IMG/VR virus record: IMGVR_UViG_3300020162_002373
Coordinates: 1-37,201 of that record
Reading direction: 5' to 3' (one strand)
From: a virus
DNA: 37,201 bases
Numbering within the stretch: the first letter of the stretch is position 1; every line of letters begins with the position of its first letter. Below are positions 1,149-18,130 of the stretch, one piece after another. The notes below the pieces were generated by a model. The model worked only from the letters and a program-made list of their open reading frames with translations. It was not told where the DNA came from and did not search any database. A program made the translations under genes and the position numbers.

Positions 1149-1181
1149 TTCGGTGGATTGACCCCCTCCCCATGAGAATAT
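1149..1181 (+). promoter_or_regulatory. Cassette promoter element, copy 1 (variant)
   Basis: TTCGGTGGATTGA, 11 bases, TGAGAATAT. The first half matches the 16-copy element and the right half is divergent. This copy also contains TTGACC followed after 17 bases by TCTATA, so it may be recognised as an ordinary sigma70 promoter. The leader then forms CCCCC (1192-1196)/GGGGG (1202-1206). Confidence 0.65.
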
Positions 1182-1223
1182 CTATATGTAGCCCCCGCCG
1201 TGGGGGAAAACAGAGGAGGGTCT

Positions 1224-1772
1224 ATGGCACTGAACTGGTCAGTCAAGGCGGTCAAGAACGCAGACGACATCTGCTACTACACCGCTACGAAGAACCGCAT
1301 CTACGACGGGGTAACCCGTGGTGAGGAGTATGTACACCCCACCACGAACGCCTTGGTCTGGGCAACGATGAGCGTCGGGCTCAACGAGATCACCGAAGCG
1401 AACATCGACGAATGGGAGAAGCGCATCGCGCTTGCCTACGCCGTCGCATGGATCAGCAAGTCGATGGTCTTCGCAGGATACGAAGATGACGGCAACATTA
1501 AGTGGGAGCCGCGCTTGATCACCCGAGCCGATCTGGTTAACCACATCGGTCTGGAGACGAACGCGTCCTATGAGTCGCCGTCGGCATGGCGTAAGCGCGT
1601 CATGGAGCGCATGGAGCAGGAGGGTCTGCGTGAACTGAAGCACGCCGAGAAGGACAACCCTGCACTCGATGCGATCACATGGGCAGAGAGCCTCGCCCTT
1701 CGGGACGATATCCGCAGCGGAAAGATTACCAAAGAAGAGGCAGCACTTCCCGAGAATCAGCCAGTGGGTTGA
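1224..1772 (+). CDS. Hypothetical protein, 182 aa
   Basis: This is the first gene of the left-arm array. ATG 1224 is chosen over an upstream GTG because AGAGGAGGG (1212-1220) precedes it. The protein starts MALNWSVKAVKNADD and has a mixed hydrophobic/charged middle (IALAYAVAWISKSMVFAGYEDD). The C-terminal half is charged and helical (ESPSAWRKRVMERMEQEGLREL), which resembles a helix-rich DNA- or protein-binding region. No family is recognised. It is followed by an intercistronic hairpin and three further genes of the same unit. Confidence 0.8.
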   Translation: MALNWSVKAVKNADDICYYTATKNRIYDGVTRGEEYVHPTTNALVWATMSVGLNEITEANIDEWEKRIALAYAVAWISKSMVFAGYEDDGNIKWEPRLITRADLVNHIGLETNASYESPSAWRKRVMERMEQEGLRELKHAEKDNPALDAITWAESLALRDDIRSGKITKEEAALPENQPVG

Positions 1773-1794
1773 TGGTACGGATGTGCTATAAATC

Positions 1795-1822
1795 GGGGAG
1801 GGCGGCACTTGTCGCTCTCCCC
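1795..1822 (+). other. Intercistronic RNA hairpin
   Basis: GGGGAGGGCGGC (1795-1806), loop ACTT, GTCGCTCTCCCC (1811-1822): a 12-bp stem with two G-U pairs and no U tract. It is nearly the same as the hairpin at 9768-9797. It lies just upstream of the ribosome site of the next gene, so it is more likely an mRNA-stability or processing element than a terminator. Confidence 0.7.
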
Positions 1823-1838
1823 ATAGGAAGGAGGCAAC

Positions 1839-2156
1839 ATGAGTATCGAGCAGTTGTTTGAGGATCAGAAGTCAGGGCGGCTACTCGCCGAGCGGCGCAC
1901 GCTGCCCTTCGCAGACCACGATGCCCACTACCTCACAACCGAGATGATTGAGCCGTTGATCGGTTCGGTCATCACAGGCGGTGTGGTAATCGGCGATGGG
2001 TCGTCGGAAGACCCGCTTGTGCCAGTCCTGTTCGTCATGCAGGGCGGCAAGAAGTTCAGCGTCATCATCTCGTCAGACGATGAGGTCAACGATGGCGGTC
2101 GTATCCTATTTGAGCGCGGCACCTACATGATGGTTGCCGCTTCGGAGGTGAAGTAA
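1839..2156 (+). CDS. Hypothetical protein, 105 aa
   Basis: ATG 1839 follows GGAAGGAGG. The 105-residue acidic protein contains a glycine-rich beta section (ITGGVVIGDGSSEDP) and a probable small beta domain (VPVLFVMQGGKKFSVIISSDDE). No family is recognised. The stop TAA is directly followed by the ATG of the next gene, so the two are translationally coupled. Confidence 0.78.
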   Translation: MSIEQLFEDQKSGRLLAERRTLPFADHDAHYLTTEMIEPLIGSVITGGVVIGDGSSEDPLVPVLFVMQGGKKFSVIISSDDEVNDGGRILFERGTYMMVAASEVK

Positions 2157-2579
2157 ATGTGGGAAGTCATTCACACAGAGGAACTGCGTGCTGACCGCAC
2201 GCTGACAGTTTTCTACCGCGAGTCGGAGAACTATGACAGGTCCATCCTGTTCGAGACGAATGTGGACGGCTTGTACATCTCCTACTACGGAACGGCGCGT
2301 GATGCCATCACCGCTGAGAATCGCATCACACAGGTCTGCTATGGGTGGGATGTCCTCATGAGTGAGGCAGACGACTTTGAGCAGCAAAAGTTGCGGGATG
2401 CCTTCTTCTGGTCGGTCCTTGAGAATCGGCTTGGAGATGACGGCTGCGCCCACTCCCCATACACCTGCGATCAGGTGCATCACGCAGCGCAGGTGCTGCT
2501 CAACAATGAAGAGTGCGAGGGGTGCGAGGTGTGCGAGTGGTCAGAGACCATTCACATCCCTGACGCATACCGTCCGTAA
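2157..2579 (+). CDS. Hypothetical protein with C-terminal Cys cluster, 140 aa
   Basis: Starts at ATG 2157, immediately after the preceding stop; GGAGGT is eight bases upstream. The 140-residue acidic protein ends with a cysteine-rich part (DDGCAHSPYTC, then NNEECEGCEVCEWSE) that could bind zinc. The family is not recognised. The next gene follows after 10 bases, with AAGGAGG overlapping the stop. Confidence 0.78.
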   Translation: MWEVIHTEELRADRTLTVFYRESENYDRSILFETNVDGLYISYYGTARDAITAENRITQVCYGWDVLMSEADDFEQQKLRDAFFWSVLENRLGDDGCAHSPYTCDQVHHAAQVLLNNEECEGCEVCEWSETIHIPDAYRP

Positions 2580-2589
2580 GGAGGCTGCT

Positions 2590-2883
2590 ATGTGGGTACA
2601 CAAAGATTGCACACTATCGAGGCAGCGGCTTGAGGGTGAGCGGCTTGGCATTACCTTGTCGGGTAATGTCTCCGTCACCTACACGCCGATGCTGACCGAC
2701 GCTCGGTACTTCGGTATCGACGACGGCAACATGGGCGAGTACCGCAATGTCGGGTCAATCGAATGCGCTGACTGCGATGCGGCTCCGCTCGTCGAGTACA
2801 ACTTCGACTTGGAGTTGTACAAGGTCGAGCAGGCTCTGAAGCAGGGCGACTATGAAAACATTGAGTGGAAGGAGGCTATCTAA
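2590..2883 (+). CDS. Hypothetical protein with CxxC, 97 aa
   Basis: ATG 2590 (MWVHKDCTLSRQ) is preceded by AAGGAGG; the open frame extends upstream but lacks a ribosome site. The protein has IECADCDAAP in its second half, a single CxxC, and an acidic C-terminus. The function is unknown. Its stop overlaps the next ATG (TAATG). Confidence 0.75.
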   Translation: MWVHKDCTLSRQRLEGERLGITLSGNVSVTYTPMLTDARYFGIDDGNMGEYRNVGSIECADCDAAPLVEYNFDLELYKVEQALKQGDYENIEWKEAI

Positions 2884-3215
2884 TGGCATACGAGATTGAC
2901 GGCGTGGAGTTCACGCCCGAGCACGAAGAGCAGGGTCTGGAGTACGACTGCTTTGCGGTCTACAAGACCGTGGTGGTCACGGGCGGCATGATCGAGGGCG
3001 GTGTGTATGACACCGAGTACGAAGCGGTAGAGGCTGCTCGAAAGATTGTATTAGATTTGTACGGCTCAGAGGTGGGCTACCACTCGGACGAGTCGGGTGG
3101 GCAGGTGACTCGAACCACCGCAACGATGACCGAGGAAGAACTCTCCGAGGCGTTGATCGACCGTGATGATGTAGCGTTTGCCACGGTTGCCGAACGAGAG
3201 GTATTGTTCTCCTAG
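2883..3215 (+). CDS. Hypothetical acidic protein, 110 aa
   Basis: ATG 2883 (MAYEIDGVEF) overlaps the previous stop by one base and is preceded by AAGGAGG. The 110-residue, strongly acidic, cysteine-poor protein includes VYDTEYEAVEAARKIV, typical of a small alpha/beta fold. No family is recognised. A ten-base gap leads to the last gene of the unit. Confidence 0.78.
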   Translation: MAYEIDGVEFTPEHEEQGLEYDCFAVYKTVVVTGGMIEGGVYDTEYEAVEAARKIVLDLYGSEVGYHSDESGGQVTRTTATMTEEELSEALIDRDDVAFATVAEREVLFS

Positions 3216-3224
3216 GGGGTAGGT

Positions 3225-3590: not shown

Positions 3591-3615
3591 CGAGCAAGGA
3601 GCCATGGTACGAGCA

Positions 3616-3648
3616 GGGGGTGGGACTTTATGGGTCTCGCCCCCTTTT
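3616..3648 (+). terminator. Rho-independent terminator
   Basis: GGGGGTGGGAC (3616-3626) pairs with GTCTCGCCCCC (3634-3644) and is followed by TTTT. It closes the first five-to-six-gene unit. Confidence 0.75.
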
Positions 3649-4064
3649 CGTTGCCCAGAGCGCGTCAGGGAGCCCTTGTAGGCAGAGTTATGGGTCGGGC
3701 GAATGCCCGTAAGGGGTTATCCACCGAGTTATCCGCACCCCATATGTACTAGTAATAACTAGAAGTACCTATAAGTTACTAGGAGTTATTAGTCATACTG
3801 GTTATTTCTATCGTGTTCATAACTCGTGAGAGTTATGAACGGCGTTACGCTGAACAGTACGAGTTATTAGTACTCGAATGGATTGTTTGGGAAGAAAAAA
3901 TACTCTTGGTATACACCGATTTTACAGGCTCAGTACCATCCGTCCAAGAGGAGTTATGAGTTATGAGTCATAAGTTATGCATCATGCACAACTTTAGTGC
4001 CCTAAAACCCCTGAATCTTGTGCAAAATGCACAAGATCGGTGGTAGCGGTGCTTGTGCTCAGCG
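3649..4064. other. AT-rich intergenic region, possible origin or control region
   Basis: No gene is seen. The region holds TTATCCACC (3718-3726) and TTATCCGCA (3729-3737), both close to the DnaA box TTATCCACA. It also has a perfect 11-bp palindrome GTTCATAACTC/GAGTTATGAAC (3815-3840, loop GTGA), many GAGTTATK and AGTTACTAG words, and a 10-bp palindrome at 4015-4037. Among the longer spacers of the window it is the most AT-rich. A replication origin is possible but unproven. Confidence 0.45.
4015..4037. promoter_or_regulatory. Palindromic operator-like site
   Basis: ATCTTGTGCA (4015-4024), AAA, TGCACAAGAT (4028-4037) is a perfect 10-bp inverted repeat 28 bases upstream of cassette promoter copy 2. 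A half-site TGCACAA recurs near 3980. The position fits a repressor or activator site, or an RNA hairpin. Confidence 0.5.
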
Positions 4065-4097
4065 TTCGGTGGATTCAGTTTATGGTTGTTGTATGTT
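4065..4097 (+). promoter_or_regulatory. Cassette promoter element, copy 2
   Basis: TTCGGTGGATTCA, 11 bases, TTGTATGTT (degenerate right half). The leader stem-loop is GTCAGAG (4105-4111)/CTCTGAC (4121-4127). It drives the DUF932-RadC-HicA unit. Confidence 0.65.
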
Positions 4098-4169
4098 CTT
4101 TGTAGTCAGAGGCGTCGGGTCTCTGACATGAGTGGGAGCCGTAGGCTTCCAAGAAAGAGGAGGTGCTGT

Positions 4170-5132
4170 ATGGCACACGAAGTAGAGACGATGGCATTCG
4201 TCGGCAGTCGGGGTCTCCCGTGGCATGGTCTAGGCACGAGCGTTGAGGAACTGCTCACTGCCAAAGAGATGCAGACGGCAGCAGGTTTGGACTGGGTGGT
4301 CGAGGCAAAGCCAATGACCCTTCAGGGCACGAACATTGTCGTCCCAAACAAGGTGGCGAATGTCCGCGACACGGACAGCGCGGTCTTGGGTGTGGTCGGT
4401 AGCCGATACAAGGTCATTCAGAACCACGAGATGTTCTCGTTCGCTGACTACCTGCTCGATGCAGGTGCTCAGTTCGAGACCGCAGGGTCGCTTCGCGGCG
4501 GAGAAGTCGTCTTCGCAGCGATGGAGATCCCTTCGGAGCACATCGAGATCAAGGGCGACAACGGGCAGACGAAGTCGTATCTCGTTCTTGCGAACGGGCA
4601 CAACGGACTCTTCCCCTTCCGCGCACTCGTGACTCCTGTCCGAGTGGTGTGCATGAACACGCTGAACGCAGCACTTGGTGATGCCAAGACTTCGTTCACG
4701 ATTCGCCACACCGCAAAGGTCGAGGGCAAGATTGCGGAAGCCAAGCGTGCACTCGGCATCACTCACAAGGTGATGGACGAGTTCAGGGTTGGGGCAGAGA
4801 GCCTCATCCTCAAGAAGATGTCGGAGAAGGATGCGATCCGCGTGATCACTTCCATCTTCCCTCTGACCGAGGACGAGAAGCGAGACAAGAAGGTGTTCTC
4901 TGATCGCGCAGCGCAGACGCTGGCGATTTGGAAGAACGCCGAGAACTTGGAAGGCGTACGCGAGACGGCGTGGGGCGTGTGGAACGCAATCGGGGAGTAC
5001 CTCGATCACGGCGTAGCGTATCGTGGCGGTCAGCGATCGACCGCAGCCGATGCGAAGGCATCGAGCATTGTTCTTGATACGGGCTTCGCGGCTCGCACCA
5101 AGCGACAGGCTCTTGCGCTTGTAGCGGCGTAA
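4170..5132 (+). CDS. DUF932 / TIGR03299 phage-plasmid protein
   Basis: The 320-residue protein starts MAHEVETMAFVGSRGLPWHGLG, the hallmark N-terminus of the DUF932 (phage/plasmid-like TIGR03299) family. Further family features are GVVGSRYKVIQNHEMFSFAD (about 80-100), GHNGLFPFRALVTPVRVVCMNTL (about 145-170) and the FTIRHT segment. Length is normal for the family. ATG 4170 is chosen for AGAGGAGG upstream; the longer open frame has no ribosome site and would overlap the leader. The molecular function is not established; members occur on phages and mobile plasmids, often near RadC-like genes, as here, and a link to anti-restriction or DNA replication has been suspected (inference). Confidence 0.9.
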   Translation: MAHEVETMAFVGSRGLPWHGLGTSVEELLTAKEMQTAAGLDWVVEAKPMTLQGTNIVVPNKVANVRDTDSAVLGVVGSRYKVIQNHEMFSFADYLLDAGAQFETAGSLRGGEVVFAAMEIPSEHIEIKGDNGQTKSYLVLANGHNGLFPFRALVTPVRVVCMNTLNAALGDAKTSFTIRHTAKVEGKIAEAKRALGITHKVMDEFRVGAESLILKKMSEKDAIRVITSIFPLTEDEKRDKKVFSDRAAQTLAIWKNAENLEGVRETAWGVWNAIGEYLDHGVAYRGGQRSTAADAKASSIVLDTGFAARTKRQALALVAA

Positions 5133-6052: not shown

Positions 6053-6085
6053 TTCGGTGGATTCGACTTTCCTCTATGGCATTGT
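6053..6085 (+). promoter_or_regulatory. Cassette promoter element, copy 3
   Basis: TTCGGTGGATTCG, 11 bases, TGGCATTGT. Leader stem-loop GCGGG (6095-6099)/CCCGC (6105-6109). AAAGATTACACAAT lies just upstream (6027-6040). Confidence 0.75.
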
Positions 6086-6129
6086 AAAGAAGTAGCGGGG
6101 ATGTCCCGCAGTTTGGAAGGAGGAAGCAA

Positions 6130-6945
6130 ATGCCTAACTGGTGCGCGAATCAACTAGACATCATCGGAGCCGAGGCAGAGGTGTTTAGGCTTATCGAACT
6201 GGTCAAGGGTGAAGACGATGGGTTCGACTTCGCCAAGATTGTCCCAGTCCCAGACAACAAGTTCTACGCAGTCAACGAAGGTCAGAACGATTTCCTTTGT
6301 GGCTGCCACCCAGAGTTCGTCATCACCAAAGCAATGGTGAAGGGAGCCGAGGGACACGAGTACGAGGCGGATCACGGCTTCGAGCCGCAGGAAGGCTACT
6401 GGGCTGTCGATGGCTTCCCAGTCGTGAAGAAGAATCTCGACAACGGAACAATCCAAGTCGTCGTGGAGAACATGTTTGGCGGATCGGAAGTCTGCCCAAC
6501 GCACGACGAACCAAAGATTTCTTCGCACCCAGACTGGTGGTACAACTGGAATGTGAAGAACTGGGGTTCCAAGTGGAACTGCGGTGAGGTCTGGCACGAC
6601 CGAGTAGACAACGGACAGACAATCGAAGGTGAAACCTCATACAACTTCGACACGGCGTGGTCGCCTGCCGAGCCTGTGGTTGCTGCTCTTGCCGAGCAGT
6701 TTCCAACGCTCTCCATTACGCATCGCTATTGCGAAGGCGGTATGGGGTTCGCAGGTCAGGTGGTCTACCTCAGCGGCGAAGAGGTCTCTCGTGATGAATA
6801 CGAGTTTGGCGATTCGTTGCCAGACGAGGCGTACATCGTGGAGGAAGAGGGTCGTCGTGGTTATGAGCGCGACTATGACAAGGTTCCTGCGAACGCGATG
6901 GAGGTGTTCTGCGATGAGCACTTCGGCGGGATCGTCGGGGGTTGA
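6130..6945 (+). CDS. Api92/DUF1281-like ferredoxin-fold protein
   Basis: A 271-residue protein starting MPNWCANQLDIIGAEAEV. It contains WYNWNVKNWGSKWNCGEVWHD (about 135-155) and YNFDTAWSPAEPVVAALAEQFPTL (about 175-197), the diagnostic features of the Api92-like / DUF1281 family (YubB-type ferredoxin-fold domain) found on phages and plasmids. ATG 6130 follows GGAAGGAGG. Biochemical function unknown. It is the only gene of its unit, and its TGA is fused to a four-copy heptamer array, after which the terminator lies. Confidence 0.88.
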   Translation: MPNWCANQLDIIGAEAEVFRLIELVKGEDDGFDFAKIVPVPDNKFYAVNEGQNDFLCGCHPEFVITKAMVKGAEGHEYEADHGFEPQEGYWAVDGFPVVKKNLDNGTIQVVVENMFGGSEVCPTHDEPKISSHPDWWYNWNVKNWGSKWNCGEVWHDRVDNGQTIEGETSYNFDTAWSPAEPVVAALAEQFPTLSITHRYCEGGMGFAGQVVYLSGEEVSRDEYEFGDSLPDEAYIVEEEGRRGYERDYDKVPANAMEVFCDEHFGGIVGG

Positions 6946-7011: not shown

Positions 7012-7050
7012 AAGGGGAGTCAGGCTTCGGCTTGGCTCCCCTTTCTTGTT
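7012..7050 (+). terminator. Rho-independent terminator, UUCG loop
   Basis: GGGGAGTCAGGC (7014-7025), TTCG, GCTTGGCTCCCC (7030-7041), then TTTCTTGTT. A 12-bp stem with two G-U pairs and flanking A/T complementarity that could make it bidirectional. Confidence 0.85.
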
Positions 7051-7058: not shown

Positions 7059-7091
7059 TTCGGTGGAATGATAAGCACCCTATGGCATAGT
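7059..7091 (+). promoter_or_regulatory. Cassette promoter element, copy 4
   Basis: TTCGGTGGAATGA, 11 bases, TGGCATAGT. Leader stem-loop GAGGG (7100-7104)/CCCTC (7110-7114). AAGATCACATAAG lies about 60 bases upstream. Confidence 0.75.
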
Positions 7092-7136
7092 GTTGTTGTG
7101 AGGGGCGTTCCCTCGTAGTTGGAAGGAGGCACACAA

Positions 7137-7649
7137 ATGGCAGAGCGAGTAAACGGCAAGTGGCTCGTCGGGCGAGTCGGCGTTGATGCGGGGATGGTGA
7201 TGGTCGGCGACCCTTGCTACCTCGACACCTACGGCAAGGAATCATCCGACGGATTCCAATGGGTCGAGTCCGAGGTTGATGCTCAAAAGACCAAGCAGAA
7301 GTACGACTACTCGTACAGCGGTGCGTGCGCCGCAACGCTCGGCGAGAACAGCGCGGGTGAGTTGGGTCGGGCAGCAGCGGTAGCGGTGAGCAGCGGCTAC
7401 GGCGACGGCGTGTATCCAGTTTACGCGCACTACAACCACGAGGGTCGCATTGAGCGTCTCGAAGTGGTGTTCGTCAATGACGACGAGGAGGAGGATGTCG
7501 AGGAGGATGAAAAGGAGTACTCGTGCCACGAGTGCGACACAGACCTCACAGAAGACGAAGTGACTTGGGCAACGGAGGATGGCGTTCTAACGATGAACGG
7601 CAATCCGTACTGCGACGGTTGCTTGCCAGAAGAGAAGGAGGAGGACTGA
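7137..7649 (+). CDS. DUF4241-like protein with C-terminal zinc finger
   Basis: This is a 170-residue protein. Residues 1-110 (GRVGVDAGMVMVGDPCYLDTY, then AAAVAVSSGYGDGVYPVYAHYN and RIERLEVVFVND) resemble the DUF4241-type beta-rich domain common in actinobacteria and their phages. A poly-acidic linker (DDEEEDVEEDEKEY) leads to SCHECDTDL and YCDGCLPEE, a CxxC...CxxC zinc finger. ATG 7137 follows GGAAGGAGG. The molecular role is unknown; the acidic linker and finger suggest protein or nucleic-acid binding. It overlaps the next gene by one base (TGATG). Confidence 0.75.
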   Translation: MAERVNGKWLVGRVGVDAGMVMVGDPCYLDTYGKESSDGFQWVESEVDAQKTKQKYDYSYSGACAATLGENSAGELGRAAAVAVSSGYGDGVYPVYAHYNHEGRIERLEVVFVNDDEEEDVEEDEKEYSCHECDTDLTEDEVTWATEDGVLTMNGNPYCDGCLPEEKEED

Positions 7650-8005
7650 TGAGCGGACAGATGGACAACTGCGGCGAGTGCGCCGCCGTTCTTTTCTACG
7701 ATGACGAGAAGGTCATCGGCACTTGGAACGGCGAACCGAATACGCGGTTCGACCTGCTTGATTTCGAGCAGTACAAGGATGGAGTGCCAGAGGGCTACCT
7801 CTTGTACTGCTTGGACTGCGCTCCGTGTGAGTGCGGTCTCCATCCAGACTTGATGTCTGATAGGACAGCGGTCAAGGAAGGGTGGTGTTTCAGCCCCGAC
7901 TGCGATGGGGAAATCGAAGCGCACAAAACAGACGATCATCCGTGTAGTCATTGCTTCAATCCGAAGTTTGACTGCGCGTGTAGCAAAGAGGAGGTGAGCA
8001 AGTGA
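7649..8005 (+). CDS. Cys-rich zinc-binding protein, 118 aa
   Basis: ATG 7649 overlaps the previous stop and follows GGAGGAGG. The protein has at least eleven cysteines in pairs (DNCGEC, YCLDCAPCECG, CFSPDC, HPCSHC, FDCAC), so two or three zinc sites are likely. No family is recognised. The stop overlaps the GTG of the next gene. Confidence 0.75.
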   Translation: MSGQMDNCGECAAVLFYDDEKVIGTWNGEPNTRFDLLDFEQYKDGVPEGYLLYCLDCAPCECGLHPDLMSDRTAVKEGWCFSPDCDGEIEAHKTDDHPCSHCFNPKFDCACSKEEVSK

Positions 8006-8385
8006 GCGCATCGGTAGAAGTGAACATTACGGTCAAGGGTGTCAGTCACGAGAAGAAGGATGCGGTGGTCTCTGCCGTACACCTTGCGCTTCTCGGGACT
8101 GGACTCCCAGACGCAGCATCAGATAAGAACGCGATGTTCGGTGCTGATTACACCTTCGCGGACACGAGCGAGTGGGAGGGATACCCGACCTACTCGTTCG
8201 ATGTCTACACGAAGTCGTTGTCAGTCGCGTGGGATGTTCTGTCTGATCGCTTCGGCGAGAAGATTGTTGAGGCGGTGTACGCAGCAGACCCAGAAGCAGA
8301 GGCTTCGGTCTATGTGTACAACCTCGACAGGGAACCAGACTACGAGACGCACACGGTGGCGCAGAAGACCGTAGGTGCTCTGTGA
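8002..8385 (+). CDS. Hypothetical protein, 127 aa
   Basis: GTG 8002 follows AGAGGAGG and overlaps the preceding stop. The protein starts MSASVEVNITVKGVSHEKKDAV and contains TYSFDVYTKSLSVAWDVLSDRFGEKIVEAV, a ferredoxin-like alternation of strand and helix. No family is recognised. The stop overlaps the ATG of the HTH gene (TGATG). Confidence 0.75.
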   Translation: MSASVEVNITVKGVSHEKKDAVVSAVHLALLGTGLPDAASDKNAMFGADYTFADTSEWEGYPTYSFDVYTKSLSVAWDVLSDRFGEKIVEAVYAADPEAEASVYVYNLDREPDYETHTVAQKTVGAL

Positions 8386-8681
8386 TGGGCAAGAAGGTTG
8401 TCCTTGACGAGACGGTCGTCATCGGCAAGTTGAAGAGTGGAGCCAAGCAGCGAGACATTGCCGCAGAGTTCGGCGTGTCTCGCCAATGGGTCTCGCAGTT
8501 CGCAAAACGCAACGGTCTCGGTCAACCGAAAGCAGGGCGACCATCCCGATACGAGCACGAGAAGATTGTGTTGATGTTGAAGGGTGGGATGTCCTACGAC
8601 GAGGTTGCTTCGAAGATTGGTGCTCAGAGCGGCACAGCGGTTCGCGCTGCTATCGGCTACTACAAGCGCAAAGCAAACTAG
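8385..8681 (+). CDS. Small HTH DNA-binding protein
   Basis: A 98-residue basic protein. LKSGAKQRDIAAEFGVSRQWVSQFAKRNGL (about 16-45) is a clear helix-turn-helix of the sigma-region-4/resolvase type, and the C-terminal half (MLKGGMSYDEVASKIGAQSGTAVRAAIGYYKRK) looks like a second one. ATG 8385 is taken; GTG 8382 is possible. As one of two plausible DNA-binding regulators in the left arm it is a candidate for recognising the cassette promoters or the GTTATG arrays (inference only). The stop TAG is fused to the following repeat array. Confidence 0.82.
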   Translation: MGKKVVLDETVVIGKLKSGAKQRDIAAEFGVSRQWVSQFAKRNGLGQPKAGRPSRYEHEKIVLMLKGGMSYDEVASKIGAQSGTAVRAAIGYYKRKAN

Positions 8682-8790: not shown

Positions 8791-8823
8791 TTCGGTGGAT
8801 TCAGTTCTAGGGTGTGGCATTGT
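8791..8823 (+). promoter_or_regulatory. Cassette promoter element, copy 5
   Basis: TTCGGTGGATTCA, 11 bases, TGGCATTGT, a full match. This is one of only two copies without an obvious leader stem-loop; GAAGGAGG follows almost at once and the first gene is the 21-aa membrane miniprotein. Confidence 0.8.
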
Positions 8824-8845
8824 AGTAGTGGAAGGAGGCAGTCAG

Positions 8846-8911
8846 ATGGATTCGGTTCTGTATGTAGTAGCCGTTTGGATCGTAATGTTGTGGTTGATGT
8901 CCAAGAAGTAA
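8846..8911 (+). CDS. 21-aa single-pass membrane miniprotein
   Basis: ATG 8846 follows GGAAGGAGG. The peptide is MDSV followed by a hydrophobic run LYVVAVWIVMLWLM and SKK. An acidic N-terminus, about 14 hydrophobic residues and a basic end suggest a tiny membrane protein, N-out or N-in unknown. Clearly related peptides occur at 14235 and 17850, and a looser one at 18535. The strong ribosome site and conservation argue that it is real. It is coupled to the DUF3846-like gene (next ATG 11 bases on). Function unknown. Confidence 0.7.
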   Translation: MDSVLYVVAVWIVMLWLMSKK

Positions 8912-8921: not shown

Positions 8922-9308
8922 ATGGGATTCGCAATCGTGATTCGGGCAGACAAGACTCGTGCCGAACTCGTGCCGTTTGAGGATGGTTCGTACGAGGCAA
9001 TCAACAAGACCATTGACGCGCAGTACACCGACATCATTGGGGTTGGCTCAATGCGCGGTGTGAGGTGGCTGATGGTTGGGGACTCCGTTCGGGAGTTCAA
9101 GCCAGAGATGCCAACGAACGAGTGGGCAACGCTGCTTCGGATGTTCTCAAACGGCGGCGGCAACGATGTGAAAGGTGATGTCGTGCTGTTCGCCAACACG
9201 GAAGGTCTGGCGGGTCGCCCATTGAGCGAGCAGGAAGCGCGCGACCTGTGGGCAATGTTCTCGGCACGAAGCGGGTCGTTTGACTCGCAACTCGTAGCCA
9301 CAGCGTAA
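8922..9308 (+). CDS. DUF3846-like protein, copy A
   Basis: A 128-residue protein with an LVPFEDGSYEAINKTIDAQYTDIIGV start, a DSVREFKPEMPTNEWATLLRMF middle and VKGDVVLFANTEGLAGRPLSEQEARDLWAMF end. The same order of segments is seen in the gene at 15107 and resembles DUF3846 (short phage proteins of unknown role). ATG 8922 follows AAGGAGG. It lies in the unit with the 21-aa peptide, the MGQYH protein and the HTNG protein. Confidence 0.65.
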   Translation: MGFAIVIRADKTRAELVPFEDGSYEAINKTIDAQYTDIIGVGSMRGVRWLMVGDSVREFKPEMPTNEWATLLRMFSNGGGNDVKGDVVLFANTEGLAGRPLSEQEARDLWAMFSARSGSFDSQLVATA

Positions 9309-10213: not shown

Positions 10214-10258
10214 GGGGAGTCGTACCAGATGTGGTGTCTGGTGCGGCTCCCCTTTTTT
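10214..10258 (+). terminator. Strong rho-independent terminator
   Basis: A continuous 16-bp stem, 10214-10229 with 10237-10252 (three G-U pairs), loop TGTGGTG, followed by six T. It is the strongest terminator of the left arm and ends the candidate RNA. Confidence 0.92.
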
Positions 10259-10417: not shown

Positions 10418-10450
10418 TTCGGTGGATTCACCATAGAGGTCTGGCATAGT
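10418..10450 (+). promoter_or_regulatory. Cassette promoter element, copy 6
   Basis: TTCGGTGGATTCA, 11 bases, TGGCATAGT: full match. Leader stem-loop CAGGGA (10459-10464)/TCCCTG (10468-10473). Confidence 0.8.
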
Positions 10451-10491
10451 GAACAAGTCAGGGAGATTCCCTGCGTAGCAAGGAGGTTCAG

Positions 10492-10944
10492 ATGGAGCAC
10501 GAACAAGTGGTCAAGGTGATGCGCTCGGCGAAGGGTCGCTTCGTCAAGGTCATCACGGAAACCGCAGCGGTCAGTCCTGCTGAGATGGCTCGGCGCATCG
10601 CTAAGGCTGCGGCAAGCGTCGCACCTGACGCGAAGGCGGCGATTCCGATGGTCAAGACTCTGAGCACTCGCACCGATGAGCGCGGGTGGACAATCAGCGT
10701 CGTTCAGATTGTCGGTCAGTTGGACAAGCACTACGGCGAGGATGGCTTCCACATCGGCAAGGATGGCGGGTTGTCGTTCAGCCTCGTCGGTGGTGCGCCA
10801 GAGGAATACGGCTTCGCTACGGCGTGTCCGTACTCTGGCAAGGAGGGTGCGTCGTGCGAGATGCGCGGCAAGCGACACGCGCACCGCTCGGTGAACGCAG
10901 GGCGCGTTCAGGAGATCATCATCGCAGGCGAGTCGTTCGCCTGA
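10492..10944 (+). CDS. 150-aa paralogue family protein, copy A
   Basis: ATG 10492 follows AAGGAGG. The C-terminal half (EYGFATACPYSGKEGASCEM, RGKRHAHRSVNAGRV, EIIIAGESF) matches the gene at 17190 (EYGEATACPYASREGSSCYG, KGERHSHRAYGLERI, SVVVNGEEF). Both are exactly 150 residues long. Two conserved Cys and a basic RHxHR motif suggest a metal or nucleic-acid site. The N-terminus AKGRFVKVITETAAV is also shared. The family is unknown; a duplicated cassette gene. Confidence 0.8.
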   Translation: MEHEQVVKVMRSAKGRFVKVITETAAVSPAEMARRIAKAAASVAPDAKAAIPMVKTLSTRTDERGWTISVVQIVGQLDKHYGEDGFHIGKDGGLSFSLVGGAPEEYGFATACPYSGKEGASCEMRGKRHAHRSVNAGRVQEIIIAGESFA

Positions 10945-10978: not shown

Positions 10979-11011
10979 TTCGGTGGATTCACTAGCCGTG
11001 TGTGGCATAGT
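10979..11011 (+). promoter_or_regulatory. Cassette promoter element, copy 7
   Basis: TTCGGTGGATTCA, 11 bases, TGGCATAGT: full match. Leader stem-loop TCAGG (11019-11023)/CCTGA (11028-11032). The only unit boundary without a heptamer array. Confidence 0.8.
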
Positions 11012-11053
11012 GTAGTAGTCAGGGATTCCTGACGAGTAGCGAAGGAGGTTCAG

Positions 11054-11326
11054 ATGGGATACGCAACGGCACTCGGTATCGCAGAGTCAGGGTTGGACTT
11101 GGACTTGCAACTGCATTGGCACTTCACGAGCAACTGCTACCCGCCAATCCCGCTGATGATGATTGCACCTGCGAAGGCGGCAATCGCACTCGCGGAGAGC
11201 GGCGAGTCTGACGAGATGGTGCAGATGCCTGATGGTGCGGAGCATCGCAAGTACGGATCACAAGTCCCTGCGTGGGTGATGATTCAGTCGCTTCACTTGG
11301 AAGCGTTCATCAGCAACGAGCAGTAG
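11054..11326 (+). CDS. Hypothetical protein, 90 aa
   Basis: ATG 11054 follows GAAGGAGG. MGYATALGIAESGLDLDLQLHWHF..., with a CYPPIPLMMIAPAKAAIALAESGE segment and an acidic C-terminal part (VQMPDGAEHRKYGSQVPAW). No family is recognised; probably a small soluble alpha-helical protein. A GCAA-loop hairpin separates it from the next gene. Confidence 0.75.
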   Translation: MGYATALGIAESGLDLDLQLHWHFTSNCYPPIPLMMIAPAKAAIALAESGESDEMVQMPDGAEHRKYGSQVPAWVMIQSLHLEAFISNEQ

Positions 11327-11751: not shown

Positions 11752-11826
11752 CTATACCCGTACCCGTATCCCCCCTACCACCAACCAGAAACCAATCCAC
11801 CGAACTGATGATGGTACGGATTCTCG

Positions 11827-11859
11827 TTCGGTGGATTCATCTCTGGCGTGTGGCATTGT
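11827..11859 (+). promoter_or_regulatory. Cassette promoter element, copy 8
   Basis: TTCGGTGGATTCA, 11 bases, TGGCATTGT. Leader stem-loop GCGGA (11869-11873)/TCCGC (11879-11883). Confidence 0.8.
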
Positions 11860-11900
11860 GTAGAAGTAGCGGAGATGTTCCGCATAGCAAGGAGGTGCGT

Positions 11901-12047
11901 ATGTGCCGTATGTGTGGTTCGGATGATGTCGTCATCAGCGGCGAGGATGTCGCTCTGGTGTGCGAGAGTTGCAAGGAGATTGCTTGGGCAATCTCAGATG
12001 CCGTGCAAGCAGATGCGTGGCGAGAAGCAGAGGAGGTGGCTCTATGA
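11901..12047 (+). CDS. Zinc-ribbon miniprotein, 48 aa
   Basis: ATG 11901 follows AAGGAGG. MCRMCGSDDVVISGEDVALVCESC... is a compact CxxC...CxxC zinc ribbon followed by an acidic helix (AWAISDAVQADAWREAEEV). The longer upstream frame has no ribosome site. Overlaps the next gene by four bases (ATGA). Confidence 0.72.
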   Translation: MCRMCGSDDVVISGEDVALVCESCKEIAWAISDAVQADAWREAEEVAL

Positions 12048-12772: not shown

Positions 12773-12805
12773 TTCGGTGGATTCAGTTCGGGGGTCTGGC
12801 ATAGT
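12773..12805 (+). promoter_or_regulatory. Cassette promoter element, copy 9
   Basis: TTCGGTGGATTCA, 11 bases, TGGCATAGT: full match. Leader stem-loop CGGGGA (12814-12819)/TCCCCG (12823-12828). Confidence 0.8.
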
Positions 12806-12844
12806 ACATACATCGGGGAAGTTCCCCGCAGCAGAGGAGGTCTT

Positions 12845-13390
12845 ATGGATAGCAGCACCGTTGATTGCGCCGCACCTCGTTGTGGTGAGGCGATAGAGGA
12901 AGATTACGCCGAGTACTCCAACATCTTGGAGGCGCAGATTTGCTCGGCGTGCTGGCAGTCCGATACTGAGCACGCTTCAATGGTCACGATGTTCACGCCA
13001 AGCGGCGAGGTGAATAAAGTCATCCTCGGCGACCTCGTGGCACTTGACCCTGAATACGGCGAGCCTGTTGACGCTTCCACTTGGAAGCGTGAGTGGCGCG
13101 CATCGTCGGCGTGGCGAGGTCATTACGATACGGTCTTCGTGAGCGGGTGGACTGAGGTTGAAGAGGATTTGTTGCTCTGGGGCGAGCGTACCGATGGGCA
13201 AGACCTCGGCGTGAAGATTCAGGCGGCGTGTGAAGATGGCACGCTACCGTGCGAGGTGACGGTCATCGCTGACCCGACCTCTAACCTCTTCGCGCAGGGG
13301 ATTAGTTTCTGGGTGCGCGATGCTGACGCGATGACCTTCGCCGTGTGGGTGAAGGGCGACGCGGCATACGCGGGGGCGACCTCGCGCTAG
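12845..13390 (+). CDS. Hypothetical protein with N-terminal zinc site, 181 aa
   Basis: ATG 12845 follows AGAGGAGG. The N-terminus MDSSTVDCAAPRCGEAI...ICSACWQSD gives a CxxxxC...CxxC zinc site (about residues 8-42). A longer acidic domain follows (TVFVSGWTEVEEDLLLWGE; EVTVIADPTSNLFAQGISFWVRDADAMTFAVWV). No family is recognised. It is the sole gene of its unit. Confidence 0.75.
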   Translation: MDSSTVDCAAPRCGEAIEEDYAEYSNILEAQICSACWQSDTEHASMVTMFTPSGEVNKVILGDLVALDPEYGEPVDASTWKREWRASSAWRGHYDTVFVSGWTEVEEDLLLWGERTDGQDLGVKIQAACEDGTLPCEVTVIADPTSNLFAQGISFWVRDADAMTFAVWVKGDAAYAGATSR

Positions 13391-13415
13391 GCGATACGCG
13401 ACGACGCGCAATCAA

Positions 13416-13451
13416 GGGGAGTGGGGGCTTCGGCTCCTGCTCCCCTTTTTT
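13416..13451 (+). terminator. Rho-independent terminator, UUCG loop
   Basis: GGGGAGTGGGGGC (13416-13428), TTCG, GCTCCTGCTCCCC (13433-13445), TTTTTT. A long GC-rich stem with one mismatch-prone centre. Confidence 0.9.
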
Positions 13452-13596: not shown

Positions 13597-13629
13597 TTCG
13601 GTGGATTCATCGCAGGGGTGTGGCATTGT
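13597..13629 (+). promoter_or_regulatory. Cassette promoter element, copy 10
   Basis: TTCGGTGGATTCA, 11 bases, TGGCATTGT. The leader pairs GGAGGTG (13639-13645) with CACTTCC (13653-13659), which would hide a decoy ribosome site; the real GAGGAGG follows at 13665. Confidence 0.78.
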
Positions 13630-13675
13630 GAAGGTAGAGGAGGTGCTGTGATCACTTCCCAAGTGAGGAGGTCTT

Positions 13676-14005
13676 ATGACCGACACACAGAAACTAACGG
13701 ACATCCTAGCGGAGGCACGCCGCAGCGCGGAGCGCGCATCGTCAGCGGCGCAGGATGCCGCATCCGAGGCACAGGACGCGCAGTCCTACGCTGACTCGGC
13801 AAGTGATTCGGCGGGTTCTGCTGAGTCGCACGCTGATGAGGTTCAGGAGGCTCTGGACTCGGTTGAGGAGATGGTCGCTGAGGTGGTCGCTGAGAACGAG
13901 CGACTGACCGCAATCATCGCCAAGATTCGCACCGCCCTTGATGGGTGGGACGCTGCGGATGAGGTCGCTGACCTCATCGCTGAGGCGACAGAAGTAGTCG
14001 CCTAA
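13676..14005 (+). CDS. Ala/Ser/Glu-rich coiled-coil protein, 109 aa
   Basis: ATG 13676 follows GTGAGGAGG. The protein is almost entirely low-complexity heptad-like helix (ERASSAAQDAASEAQDAQSYADSASDSAGSAESHADEVQEAL..., with MVAEVVAENERLTAIIAKI a clear coiled coil at about 65-85). It is strongly acidic, with no Cys. It probably forms an oligomeric rod; the function is unknown. A UUCG hairpin follows. Confidence 0.75.
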   Translation: MTDTQKLTDILAEARRSAERASSAAQDAASEAQDAQSYADSASDSAGSAESHADEVQEALDSVEEMVAEVVAENERLTAIIAKIRTALDGWDAADEVADLIAEATEVVA

Positions 14006-14475: not shown

Positions 14476-14508
14476 TTCGGTGGATTCACCGCAGGGGTGT
14501 GGCATTCT
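14476..14508 (+). promoter_or_regulatory. Cassette promoter element, copy 11
   Basis: TTCGGTGGATTCA, 11 bases, TGGCATTCT (one change). Leader stem-loop GAGCGG (14520-14525)/CCGCTC (14531-14536). Confidence 0.78.
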
Positions 14509-14555
14509 GTATTCATCGGGAGCGGCGATACCGCTCACACATTGAGGAGGTCGGT

Positions 14556-14801
14556 ATGTCGTACCGCCATCTAATCGGCGAGCCCGTGCTCACCGAGGCG
14601 CAGGTTGAGAATCACATTCTCGCCATCGCCAAGAACATTACCGAATCACAAGAGCGCGGCTCTTGCGATTCCATCGCGGCGTGCGATTCACGCCTTTGCG
14701 TAGAGCGTCGGTTGCTCGCGGTTGAGCAACTCCGCCTCTATCTGGTTGATTCCCTCGCCGCAATCGCGGCAGAAGAAGTACACCAGAAGTACTACCGCTA
14801 G
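14556..14801 (+). CDS. Hypothetical helical protein, 81 aa
   Basis: ATG 14556 follows GAGGAGG. MSYRHLIGEPVLTEAQVENHILAIAKNITE..., largely helical with CDSIAACDSRLC in the middle (three Cys, CxxxxxCxxxxC). No family is recognised. A perfect hairpin follows. Confidence 0.72.
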   Translation: MSYRHLIGEPVLTEAQVENHILAIAKNITESQERGSCDSIAACDSRLCVERRLLAVEQLRLYLVDSLAAIAAEEVHQKYYR

Positions 14802-15026: not shown

Positions 15027-15059
15027 TTCGGTGGATTGCTCCCCGATGCGTGGCATAGT
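15027..15059 (+). promoter_or_regulatory. Cassette promoter element, copy 12
   Basis: TTCGGTGGATTGC, 11 bases, TGGCATAGT. Leader stem-loop CGGGG (15068-15072)/CCCCG (15078-15082). Confidence 0.78.
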
Positions 15060-15106
15060 CTACTCATCGGGGGGCTTCCCCGTAGGAAGAAAGAAGGAGG
15101 CACACG

Positions 15107-15514
15107 ATGGCAGGGTTGATGTATGTGATCCGCGCGCTAGAAGATGGCACGCATCGCATCGTGAAGATGGAGCGCGGCGAGCAGTCGCGCGGCTTACAGC
15201 CGATGTATGACGCGATCGGTTGCCAATATGTGGAGATGGTCGGGCGCGGCAATCTCGGCGGCGTACCCGTTGCGCTTCTGGTAGACGAGGAGGGGCTTCT
15301 CGTACAGAATCCGCGAATCAACCTCACCGCGTGCGATGTGTTCGCGGTCGCAACCAAGAGCGCGCCGATGTACCTACGGGGCGGCGGTTTGGCGGGCGAT
15401 GCGGTACTCGTACACGATGACGAGTTGCGCGGCTTCACCGATGCGGAAATCGCCAAGATTGAGCGCGTGCTCAACGATGGCGGCTTCCCCCTCTACGAGG
15501 GGCGCACGCTCTAA
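15107..15514 (+). CDS. DUF3846-like protein, copy B
   Basis: A 135-residue protein. MYDAIGCQYVEMVGRGN, VALLVDEEGLLVQNPRINLTACDVFA and GDAVLVHDDELRGFTDAEIAKI follow the order seen in DUF3846, including the conserved DEEG...NP..N motif. The gene at 8922 is a more diverged relative. ATG 15107 follows AGAAGGAGG. Function unknown; single-gene unit. Confidence 0.72.
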   Translation: MAGLMYVIRALEDGTHRIVKMERGEQSRGLQPMYDAIGCQYVEMVGRGNLGGVPVALLVDEEGLLVQNPRINLTACDVFAVATKSAPMYLRGGGLAGDAVLVHDDELRGFTDAEIAKIERVLNDGGFPLYEGRTL

Positions 15515-15696: not shown

Positions 15697-15729
15697 TTCG
15701 GTGGATTGGGCGGCGGCGTGTGGCATTGT
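15697..15729 (+). promoter_or_regulatory. Cassette promoter element, copy 13
   Basis: TTCGGTGGATTGG, 11 bases, TGGCATTGT. Leader stem-loop GAGAGGC (15737-15743)/GCTTCTC (15748-15754), loop AAAC. Confidence 0.78.
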
Positions 15730-15773
15730 GTAGATAGAGAGGCAAACGCTTCTCACAAGGAAGGAGAAACGAA

Positions 15774-15971
15774 ATGCCGTACATCAAGGGACAGGGACAC
15801 ATTGAGGATGGTACTCCTTGCCTCGCCGATGAGTACTTCCTAAACGGATGCGAGGAGGATGCGGAAACCTTCATCCGAATCCACGATGGCTCGGAGGATG
15901 GAGTAAAGATTCCAGTCTGCGAGGATTGCGCCGAGGGCGCGAAGGCTATCAACTCCCTAGCAGGGCGATAG
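15774..15971 (+). CDS. Small zinc-binding protein, 65 aa
   Basis: ATG 15774 follows GGAAGGAG. MPYIKGQGHIEDGTPCLADEYF..., with C16, C26 and VCEDC near the end: a possible four-Cys zinc site. Acidic. No family is recognised; first of two genes in its unit. Confidence 0.7.
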   Translation: MPYIKGQGHIEDGTPCLADEYFLNGCEEDAETFIRIHDGSEDGVKIPVCEDCAEGAKAINSLAGR

Positions 15972-15977
15972 GGGCAA

Positions 15978-16266: not shown

Positions 16267-16272
16267 CAACGA

Positions 16273-16301
16273 GAGGGAGGGTCGCGGGGCGGCTCTCCCT
16301 C
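16273..16301 (+). terminator. Hairpin terminator
   Basis: GAGGGAGGGTCGC (16273-16285), GGG, GCGGCTCTCCCTC (16289-16301), TTCGTGTTTC. 13-bp stem, weak U tract. Confidence 0.75.
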
Positions 16302-16316
16302 TTCGTGTTTCTGGGC

Positions 16317-16439: not shown

Positions 16440-16472
16440 TTCGGTGGATTCAGGTTCGCCGTGTGGCATTGT
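16440..16472 (+). promoter_or_regulatory. Cassette promoter element, copy 14
   Basis: TTCGGTGGATTCA, 11 bases, TGGCATTGT. Leader stem-loop CGGAGA (16481-16486)/TCTCCG (16490-16495). Confidence 0.8.
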
Positions 16473-16517
16473 TTAGTAGTCGGAGAGATTCTCCGCAGTA
16501 TGGAAGGAGAGAACACT

Positions 16518-16907
16518 ATGACGAACACAGGGAGCGGCATCGTTCTGGTCGGCTATGTGGACACAACGGCAGGGGTCGTGCTTTGCGTTGATTGCGTGAA
16601 TCGTCATCAGGGCGCGACCGATGCGATGGACACCGTGTATAGCCCCGATGTGAACGAGGACACCCCCGCGTGCTTTGATTGCGGGGCATCGCTAGACGAA
16701 ACGGAAACGCTTTTCCGAATCGTTCGCGTGTTCGCGGGTGGTCGGTATCCAAGCGAAACAGTCGCCGATGGGCTCACCATCGCGCAGGTTCGTGCGTGGA
16801 CTAACGACCCAGAAACGAGCAGCAGAACCGCGAAGGGCGCGGAAGCGGTAGAGCGCACGCGTCTATGCGGCGAGTGGATGGACACCTACGAGCCACAGAG
16901 CAGGTAG
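16518..16907 (+). CDS. Zinc-binding protein, 129 aa
   Basis: ATG 16518 follows GGAAGGAG. The N-terminal half carries VLCVDCVNRH and ACFDCGASLDETE, a CxxC...CxxC zinc ribbon. The C-terminal half is a plain alpha/beta stretch (DGLTIAQVRAWTNDPETSS). No family is recognised; single-gene unit. Confidence 0.72.
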   Translation: MTNTGSGIVLVGYVDTTAGVVLCVDCVNRHQGATDAMDTVYSPDVNEDTPACFDCGASLDETETLFRIVRVFAGGRYPSETVADGLTIAQVRAWTNDPETSSRTAKGAEAVERTRLCGEWMDTYEPQSR

Positions 16908-16926
16908 CACACGCAGGGGCAACAGC

Positions 16927-16966: not shown

Positions 16967-16971
16967 TTATG

Positions 16972-17013: not shown

Positions 17014-17111
17014 TGTATACGCCTATCCGTATCCGTATCTCCGTAATCCAATCCGAAAGAATCCGACGCGCTTCGGCGTGCGCTTCACCCTTCGGGGAGC
17101 ACCTCGGCGGC

Positions 17112-17144
17112 TTCGGTGGATTCAGCGCGGGGGCGTGGCATTGT
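17112..17144 (+). promoter_or_regulatory. Cassette promoter element, copy 15
   Basis: TTCGGTGGATTCA, 11 bases, TGGCATTGT. Leader stem-loop CGGGG (17153-17157)/CCCCG (17163-17167). Confidence 0.8.
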
Positions 17145-17189
17145 ATAGGAGTCGGGGGGCTTCCCCGCAGTATGAAAGGAGAGCGCACT

Positions 17190-17642
17190 ATGGCAACGGC
17201 AGAGCAGATTCACGCCGCAATCGCAGCGGCGAAGGGGCGCGTGTTCACCCTCGTGGCGAGCACGCTCCCGACACCAGAGAAGGTTCTGGTGAAGCGCGCC
17301 AATGACGCGAAGGGCAAGAGCGTAGAAGGGCACACCTTCGCCGCTCAGCAGACGCTCAGCACCTCAGAGGTAGACGGCGGCACGATCTCAGTCGTGCGCG
17401 TCAGCGGGCGACCCGACCCAGCGTGGGGCGGCGGCGATCCGATCCGCCTCAGCAAGAAGGGCACGCAGTCGGTCGGCTTCCTCGTCTACGCGATGAACGA
17501 GTACGGCGAGGCGACGGCTTGTCCCTACGCTTCCCGCGAGGGGTCGTCGTGCTACGGCAAGGGCGAGCGACACTCACACCGCGCCTATGGTTTGGAGCGC
17601 ATCTCGTCGGTCGTTGTGAACGGCGAGGAGTTTGTAAAGTAG
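17190..17642 (+). CDS. 150-aa paralogue family protein, copy B
   Basis: Exactly 150 residues like its paralogue at 10492. Shared landmarks are AAKGRVF (about 14), QTLSTSEVDGGTISVVRVSG (about 54-73), EYGEATACPYASREGSSCYG, KGERHSHRAYG and the VVVNGEEF end. ATG 17190 follows GAAAGGAG. The paired Cys and RHxHR motif are conserved between copies, so they are likely functional. Unknown family. Confidence 0.8.
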   Translation: MATAEQIHAAIAAAKGRVFTLVASTLPTPEKVLVKRANDAKGKSVEGHTFAAQQTLSTSEVDGGTISVVRVSGRPDPAWGGGDPIRLSKKGTQSVGFLVYAMNEYGEATACPYASREGSSCYGKGERHSHRAYGLERISSVVVNGEEFVK

Positions 17643-17645
17643 AGC

Positions 17646-17685
17646 GCGGCGGCGCGTCGCTCCTTCGGGGGCGGCGCGTCGTCGC
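17646..17685 (+). other. Very long intercistronic hairpin, UUCG loop
   Basis: 17646-17663 pairs with 17668-17685 over 18 bp (five G-U pairs) around TTCG, without a U tract. The most stable internal hairpin of the array; GAGAGGG of the next gene follows. Confidence 0.78.
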
Positions 17686-17701
17686 AGAAAGAGAGGGCAC
17701 T

Positions 17702-17857
17702 ATGAATCGGAAAGCAATCATCAGCCTTCGCACCTATGCGGAGATTGAGCAGGAGCGCAAGAATCGCGCCTTCGTCGGTCGTATGGCGTGGTACGCCATC
17801 AGCGCGGCGGCGGCGTACTTCTTGGCGCATCTCGTCTACGCGGTGGCGCGTGGTTGA
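17702..17857 (+). CDS. Small membrane protein, 51 aa
   Basis: ATG 17702; MNRKAIISLRTYAEIEQERKNR..., then MAWYAISAAAAYFLAHLVYAV, a clear transmembrane segment, ending ARG. N-terminal charged part likely cytoplasmic. GAGAGGG lies upstream. Overlaps the 20-aa membrane peptide by eight bases; both may act together in the membrane. Confidence 0.7.
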   Translation: MNRKAIISLRTYAEIEQERKNRAFVGRMAWYAISAAAAYFLAHLVYAVARG

Positions 17858-17912
17858 GGTGGTGTATCTCGCGGCGGTCGCCGTCGTGATGGCGTGGATT
17901 CTTCGCAAGTAG
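17850..17912 (+). CDS. 20-aa single-pass membrane miniprotein
   Basis: GTG 17850; MVEV, VYLAAVAVVMAWIL, RK. Almost the same as the peptide at 14235 in protein and DNA, with the same eight-base overlap with the gene before it and the same position just before the terminator. Confidence 0.65.
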   Translation: MVEVVYLAAVAVVMAWILRK

Positions 17913-17916
17913 TCGC

Positions 17917-17953
17917 AAGAGGCGGCGTGCCTTCGGGCGCGTCGCCTCTTTGT
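17917..17953 (+). terminator. Rho-independent terminator, UUCG loop
   Basis: AAGAGGCGGCGTGCC (17917-17931), TTCG, 17936-17950, then TTT within a TTTG tail. 15-bp stem. Confidence 0.85.
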
Positions 17954-17963
17954 GTTTCTGGCG

Positions 17964-18005
17964 GGTTATGGGTTATGTGTTATGTGTTATGTGTTATGTC
18001 TTACG
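17964..18005. repeat. Tandem heptamer array (6 copies)
   Basis: GGTTATG, GGTTATG, TGTTATG, TGTTATG, TGTTATG, TCTTACG in 7-bp register, then CATAACCTATGCC. A CTTCGG-rich stretch (about 18054-18100) follows, as also before copies 14 and 15. Confidence 0.85.
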
Positions 18006-18097
18006 CATAACCTATGCCAGCCTTCCCGTGGTTTCCATCTACCTATTCTCTACCCTTCGGGTCGCCTTCGGCGCGCGCTTCGGCGTGCGCTTCACCC

Positions 18098-18130
18098 TTC
18101 GGTGGATTCATCACCCCCCTCTGGCATAGT
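18098..18130 (+). promoter_or_regulatory. Cassette promoter element, copy 16
   Basis: TTCGGTGGATTCA, 11 bases, TGGCATAGT: full match. It starts an unusually long leader (about 187 bases). Confidence 0.8.

Follow-up and report, generated by a model that had tools for sequence, protein, structure and literature searches.

A phage-specific sequence block in the -35 region of sixteen predicted early promoters

IMG/VR virus record IMGVR_UViG_3300020162_002373 is a 37.2-kb phage contig, and its 37,201 nucleotides form the window analyzed here (genome G000). Within its early region, between positions 1149 and 18130, a two-part element recurs in which a left block, TTCGGTGGATT(CA), lies at a fixed distance upstream of a block resembling a -10 promoter element. 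We favor, with a probability of about 0.64, the interpretation that these sites are real promoters and that the left block is a phage-specific replacement of the -35 element, akin to the MotA box of phage T4 and read by a phage factor together with host RNA polymerase. The interpretation draws on the sequence, namely the sites and their spacing, the -10 signature, the purine at the predicted +1, a covarying leader hairpin, the replacement of TTGAC, and the exchange of blocks among relatives; from these we infer the transcription start, a positive action of the left block, and the existence and nature of the factor. An original prediction from the window had proposed a phage-specific 33-bp promoter element, and it was partly supported, being right in outline and wrong in detail on the right block.

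RESULTS

Sixteen oriented copies with constant spacing

The left block was present on the plus strand at 16 of the 16 predicted sites. The match to TTCGGTGGATT was exact in 15 copies, the site at 7059 having TTCGGTGGAAT instead, and TTCGGTGGATTCA was exact in 11. The right block read TGGCATWGT in 13 copies; the site at 14476 carries the variant TGGCATTCT, and the right blocks at 1149 (TGAGAATAT) and 4065 (TTGTATGTT) are weak, agreeing only at key -10 positions. The single 33-bp string first proposed for all copies consequently fits 13 to 14 of them and not 16. When 3 or fewer mismatches were allowed, 14 copies were found, compared with none in 100 shuffles and a chance expectation of 0. The gap between the two blocks was 11 bases at every site, as had been predicted.

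A position weight matrix scan of both strands of the whole window gave the sixteen sites scores of 25 to 39 and the best other sequence a score of 17.8, such that no additional promoter of this kind was found and no copy lies within 18131-37201. The other strand held a single isolated left block, at 11794-11804, which lacks a -10 element. This minus-strand block (window 11794-11837) is an inverted second copy, 33 bp upstream of the site at 11827. Each copy had been expected to precede a gene start, and a Shine-Dalgarno (SD) sequence and start codon indeed lie roughly 20 to 70 bases past the predicted +1 at 15 of the 16 sites; the exception is the site at 18098, the leader of which is long and decayed. 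Comparison with 50,697 phage records by megablast (8-20 kb of the window) and blastn (8.6-11.1 kb) returned no match.

The right block resembles an extended -10 element

Sites of this kind were aligned from five related genomes, giving 52 sites, orthologs among them (16 from the window, 6 from G001, 13 from G002, 14 from G008, and 3 from L215). T-15, A-11, and T-7 were invariant in 52/52 sites, and G-14 was present in 50/52. Because TGn, A-11, and T-7 form its signature, we read the right block as the extended -10 element (TGn-CATWGT) of a housekeeping-type sigma factor. The seventh base past the -10 was a purine in 51/52 sites and is likely the +1, within the range of 6 to 9 bases that had been foreseen. 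A consensus scan for a standard TTGACA-like -35 element at 16 to 18 bp picked up 0 of the 16 sites, and the sigma54 pattern GG-N10-GC (-24/-12) was not matched, as no GC was seen by eye at the required distance after TGGCATWGT in the aligned sites. The element had been described as nonstandard throughout; that description holds for the left block, which is no -35 box, but the right block appears ordinary, so that only the -35 half is unusual.

A short leader hairpin begins near the predicted +1 at 14 of the 16 window sites. Comparison of 11 distinct stems of equal geometry, which come from paralogous and orthologous sites and are not independent, showed that 66/66 cells were paired and that 4 of 6 pairs had changed on both sides, a covariation score reached by 0 of 500 shuffles. 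The position of a 5′-terminal hairpin ahead of the SD sequence suggests mRNA protection. Gene modules follow one order: an intrinsic terminator, tandem GTTATGN repeats, the promoter, the hairpin, the SD sequence, and the gene. We conclude that the anatomy of the sites, as read from sequence, is strong support for their identity as promoters.

The tandem GTTATGN repeats (3 to 7 units) follow the terminators at 780-1060, at 3690-3980, and in every intergenic region from 5.9 to 18.0 kb, and G002 and G008 contain them as well. The intergenic micro-repeats of other relatives are of other kinds (TAACTAAC, GGGGTATGGGG, and ATGATGA).

The left block stands where distant relatives have a -35 box

The left block spans -39 to -27, that is, the -35 region. 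At the matching place, promoters of a TTGAC-N17-TANNNT-like form were found for orthologs of the genes at 4170 and 6130 in relatives G016 and G019 and of the gene at 1224 in G016, and these promoters are also followed by a similar leader hairpin. The orthologs of gene 4170 have TTGACG-N17 promoters where the site at 4065 stands, and the gene 6130 ortholog in G016 has TTGACA-N17-TACAAT. Moreover, TTGAC promoters ahead of an SD sequence and start codon numbered 19 in G016, 18 in G019, and 16 in G021, compared with 0 in the window, 1 in G001, and 0 each in G002 and G008. Because such promoters stand at orthologous genes in G016 and G019 and are nearly absent from G000, G001, G002, and G008, one phage clade has given up the -35 box and acquired the left block.

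Upstream of the TTGAC promoters of G016 and of G019 (55.5-66.4 kb) stands a further hairpin, GTTCnnCCCCA-(varying stem)-TGGGATAGAAC, the inner stem of which covaries by eye. This upstream hairpin is possibly a terminator or a regulator site.

The left block is exchanged among close relatives

Close relatives of the window carry different left blocks. Type A, with TTCGGTGGATT, comprises the window and G001; type B is G002, with CTCCATAGTAGGTTT-N7 at 13/13 sites; type C is G008, with CTTAKCGGTGGGATCG-N11 at 14 sites; and type D is L215, with TCATAGnnAGCG-N8 at 3 sites. Types A and C have CGGTGG in common 22 bases ahead of TGG, and types B and D have CATAG in common 19 bases ahead of TGG. In portal protein, G001 and G002 are nonetheless 96 to 97% identical to the window. 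At orthologous promoters of G000 and G002, mean identity reached 85% for the gene, 91% for the leader, and 94% for the -10 element, whereas the left block was at 45% and the upstream DNA at 55%. Shuffled controls also gave 45% for the left block (about 49% for random 60-mers), and the two left blocks are thus no more alike than shuffled sequence.

At most sites, the upstream region had diverged too, so the block changed along with upstream DNA. The exception is the site at 10979, where types A, B, and C agree in the 60 bp upstream as well as in the leader and gene that follow, and the difference is confined to about 24 bp of the -35 region. Block type does not track the core genome, because G000 is nearer in DNA to G002 (about 90%) than to G008 (about 75%) yet belongs with G008 to the CGGTGG family. 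Despite their different left blocks, G002 and G008 share early-region stretches of up to 96% identity, and the sequences indicate that genes behind different left blocks are traded between phages. In addition, G003 contains a hybrid promoter (L185 458-490) in which an A-type left block is followed by DNA 99.2% identical to G002, the breakpoint falling inside the promoter. The hybrid could have arisen by natural recombination or through a join made in assembly, the latter because the breakpoint lies 480 bp from a contig end. We conclude that the -35 half of promoters is exchanged genome-wide among close relatives, which is the new point of this analysis.

Candidates for the recognizing factor

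Sigma region 4 is the part of a sigma factor that reads the -35 region. A phage regulator or an alternative sigma factor had been proposed to recognize the element; a phage-specific, promoter-like element is what was found, but a full alternative sigma factor was not, as Sigma70_r2 had no match in 17 related contigs, some of them incomplete, in a search in which the positive controls matched. Standalone sigma-region-4 proteins are encoded by relatives G015, G011, G016, and G021. The 137-amino-acid protein at 24324-24737 in G015 and the protein at 66046-66207 in G011 are standalone C-terminal parts of a housekeeping-type sigma factor (regions 3.2 and 4 in G015) and lack region 2. The 71-amino-acid protein of G016 and G021 co-occurs with promoters of another class, ACCTAAAYGAATC-N9-TGGCAT-like, in two related genomes, too few for proof. 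The G016 gene sits beyond homologs of the first genes of the window, and the counterpart DNA of the window phage would therefore lie to the left of base 1. No contig found covered that DNA, and relatives sought with the protein encoded at 1224-1772 were a distant group only. Homologs of MotA and AsiA were not recognized among window proteins in Pfam and PHROGs scans, which covered an incomplete genome and included no dedicated profile search.

Three small proteins of the window were considered. The 97-amino-acid p97 (23927-24220, minus strand) has two CxxC pairs and a helix-turn-helix like that of sigma region 4 that scores below the Pfam cutoff, and its structure model is poor (pLDDT [predicted local distance difference test] of 57). 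Its recognition-helix segment, SRQRVYQ, is identical in phages of types A, B, and C, and p97 thus does not explain the difference in left blocks. The 99-amino-acid p99 of the early region (8382-8681, plus strand) has two helix-turn-helix-like stretches; between A and B phages it keeps 90% identity and so is not the specificity determinant alone. The third, p93, is a weak candidate encoded by the 93-amino-acid gene after the portal gene (25102-25383, minus strand). This is the one slot noted in the sampled DNA in which types A and C have one gene family and types B and D carry an unrelated gene; this match to the left-block families may be chance, given five genomes and about fifty slots. For p93, no DNA-binding domain was recognized, the fold was of low confidence (pLDDT of 69), and no PDB match was found below an E value of 0.001.

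Proposed mechanism and alternatives

In the mechanism that we favor, the extended -10 element would be bound by host RNA polymerase carrying the housekeeping sigma factor of the host, and RNA would begin at the purine 7 bases on, yielding an mRNA that opens with a short hairpin followed by the SD sequence. The left block would take the place of the -35 box and be bound by a phage-encoded factor acting with RNA polymerase. The specificity of that factor would vary among close phages, every site of one genome carrying the matching block. A positive role, though not proven, is favored by the constant spacing and by the disappearance of TTGAC. More tentatively, the -35 half of more than 12 early promoters could be a phage-specific address whose reader is a small phage sigma-region-4-like or equivalent protein replacing host sigma region 4, whole phages switching all sites together while trading genes and leaders freely. 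Several observations weigh against the favored mechanism: the 52 aligned sites, orthologs among them, lack independence; no clear member of the standalone sigma-region-4 proteins was found in the incomplete genomes of the A, B, C, and D phages; and the helix-turn-helix proteins p97, p99, and p86 of the window were rejected as the specificity factor, their recognition segments being unchanged across A, B, and C phages. Finally, an extended -10 element can work without a -35 element, and the left block is therefore possibly a repressor site.

That possibility is the chief rival, although we consider it unlikely: the left block would be an operator for a phage repressor of the immunity type, as in cluster A phages, superimposed on the -35 region of promoters whose extended -10 element works without a -35 box. 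It would account for asymmetric sites of 13 to 16 bp that have one orientation, are uniform within a phage, and differ among heterotypic relatives, as in cluster A (PMC6550527), and a concerted change at all sites suits immunity groups. Every full site, however, lies at one fixed distance from the -10 element, whereas cluster A sites are mostly not associated with promoters, and the TTGAC -35 of orthologous promoters was lost here, which a repressor would not require. Moreover, no repressor or integrase gene was recognized in the sampled genomes, which are incomplete.

Somewhat less probable still is a host factor, either an alternative sigma factor or an activator, that reads the left block and differs between phages through their different hosts. 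Different hosts are possible, and host sigma groups do vary in -35 preference. However, the genes that follow different blocks are almost the same, which makes this explanation less likely; the identity of early genes in G002 and G008 points to a recent exchange within one host shared by both. The -10 element is alike in all of the phages, and blocks that are uniform within a genome yet almost entirely different between 90%-identical phages exceed what host drift would produce. A complete phage alternative sigma factor, in which region 4 would recognize the left block while region 2 would recognize the -10 element, fits a bipartite site of constant spacing but is very improbable, given the housekeeping signature of the -10 element and the absence of a Sigma70_r2 match in the 17 partly incomplete contigs. 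We conclude that a phage-specific -35 replacement is the best account of the left block.

Individual sites and neighboring features

All sixteen sites are on the plus strand. The first (1149-1181) combines left block TTCGGTGGATTGA with a weak extended -10, a predicted +1 at 1188, a hairpin at 1192-1206, and the gene at 1224-1772. At the second (4065-4097; left block TTCGGTGGATTCA), the weak -10 is identical in the G008 ortholog, the predicted +1 is 4104, and a hairpin (4105-4127) precedes a DUF932 gene (4170-5132). The third (6053-6085; predicted +1 at 6092, hairpin at 6095-6109) serves a gene with an Api92-like C-terminal domain (6130-6945), and the fourth (7059-7091; predicted +1 at 7098, hairpin at 7100-7114) serves genes at 7137-8681. 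An intrinsic terminator at 7012-7043 (plus strand) precedes the fourth site, and similar terminators lie at module boundaries (3615-3645, 10214-10252, 13414-13447, 16271-16303, and 17917-17950). The fifth (8791-8823; predicted +1 at 8830) lacks the hairpin, which is present in the G002 and G008 orthologs, and precedes a 21-codon open reading frame at 8850 and then the gene at 8922.

The next two sites, 10418-10450 (predicted +1 at 10457, hairpin at 10459-10473) and 10979-11011 (11018 and 11018-11033, respectively), precede genes at 10492-10944 and 11054-11326. They are followed by 11827-11859 (11866, 11869-11883; gene 11899-12047), 12773-12805 (12812, 12814-12828; gene 12845-13390), and 13597-13629 (13636, with a larger hairpin at 13639-13659; gene 13676-14005). 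The variant site at 14476-14508 has its predicted +1 at 14515 and a hairpin at 14520-14536 ahead of the gene at 14556-14801. Next come 15027-15059 (15066, 15068-15082; gene 15107-15514), 15697-15729 (15736, 15737-15754; gene 15774-15971), 16440-16472 (16479, 16481-16495; gene about 16515-16907), and 17112-17144 (17151, 17153-17167; gene 17190-17642). The last, 18098-18130 (predicted +1 at 18137), has no clear hairpin and is followed by a possible gene at 18317-18538.

Elsewhere, the window encodes a portal protein, an SU10-type capsid protein, a head protease, SSB, a DnaC-like loader, and a PD-(D/E)XK exonuclease. The portal protein (25387-27591, minus strand) has a C-terminal polynucleotide-kinase-like stretch (residues 490-617) that is kept in many IMG/VR relatives, and a portal relative (56%) in an Anaerolinea metagenome-assembled genome contig of 70% GC is too weak for naming a host. 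A tRNA-Ile with a TAT anticodon (886-961) lies amid GAGTTATG repeats, and the tRNA was the sole match in an Rfam scan of the window. In G008, a phage of about 80 kb, an open frame of 5112 codons in the tape-measure position is followed by one of 2635 codons (33404-48742, L174-L175).

DISCUSSION

Phages that are about 90% alike, with equal genes, leaders, and -10 elements and different recognition blocks, provide a natural experiment on how promoters evolve. The proposed mechanism predicts a matching regulator and orthogonal pairs of promoter and factor, and it raises the question of how one genome alters more than 12 binding sites together. The standalone sigma-region-4 proteins, which come from the same wider phage family as the window, with no clear member in types A to D, offer a concrete idea of how host polymerase might be redirected outside T4.

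The element had been likened loosely to the start-associated sequences (SAS) of mycobacteriophages, an analogy that is looser than the one to T4 middle promoters. SAS are 13-bp repeats located 3 to 9 bp from start codons and are probably translational, and the extended SAS (ESAS) are 17-bp inverted repeats with SigA-like -35 and -10 elements that form a putative promoter, the repeat consensus varying by subcluster (PMC3203893, PMC11373665). Like the element described here, they recur at the starts of early genes. The left-block element, however, belongs to neither class: it has no dyad and no -35; its sequence is other than the GGGATAGGAGCCC-like 13-mer of cluster K SAS, and the predicted starts lie about 20 to 70 bp before start codons.

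Cluster A stoperators are asymmetric 13- to 14-bp sites in one orientation, present in 20 to 30 copies per genome, with a phage-specific consensus coupled to the regulator (PMC6550527, PMC9283540). The left block is likewise asymmetric, oriented, and phage specific. Cluster A sites, however, lie mostly away from promoters and block elongation, whereas each full site of the present element comes with a -10 element, a predicted start, and a leader hairpin, so that it is no member of the stoperators either. The genome-wide spread off promoters that characterizes stoperators was not seen, as 16 of 16 sites precede gene starts and none occurs from 18 to 37 kb.

The closest likeness is to the middle promoters of T4, in which a MotA box centered near -30 replaces the -35 element and sigma is appropriated by MotA and AsiA (PMC6755090). 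In both cases, a phage element near -30 stands instead of the -35, a good and often extended -10 is kept, and a phage gene set would be transcribed by host RNA polymerase. The left block differs from the MotA box in being longer (13 to 16 bp), in its sequence, and in changing completely between close relatives.

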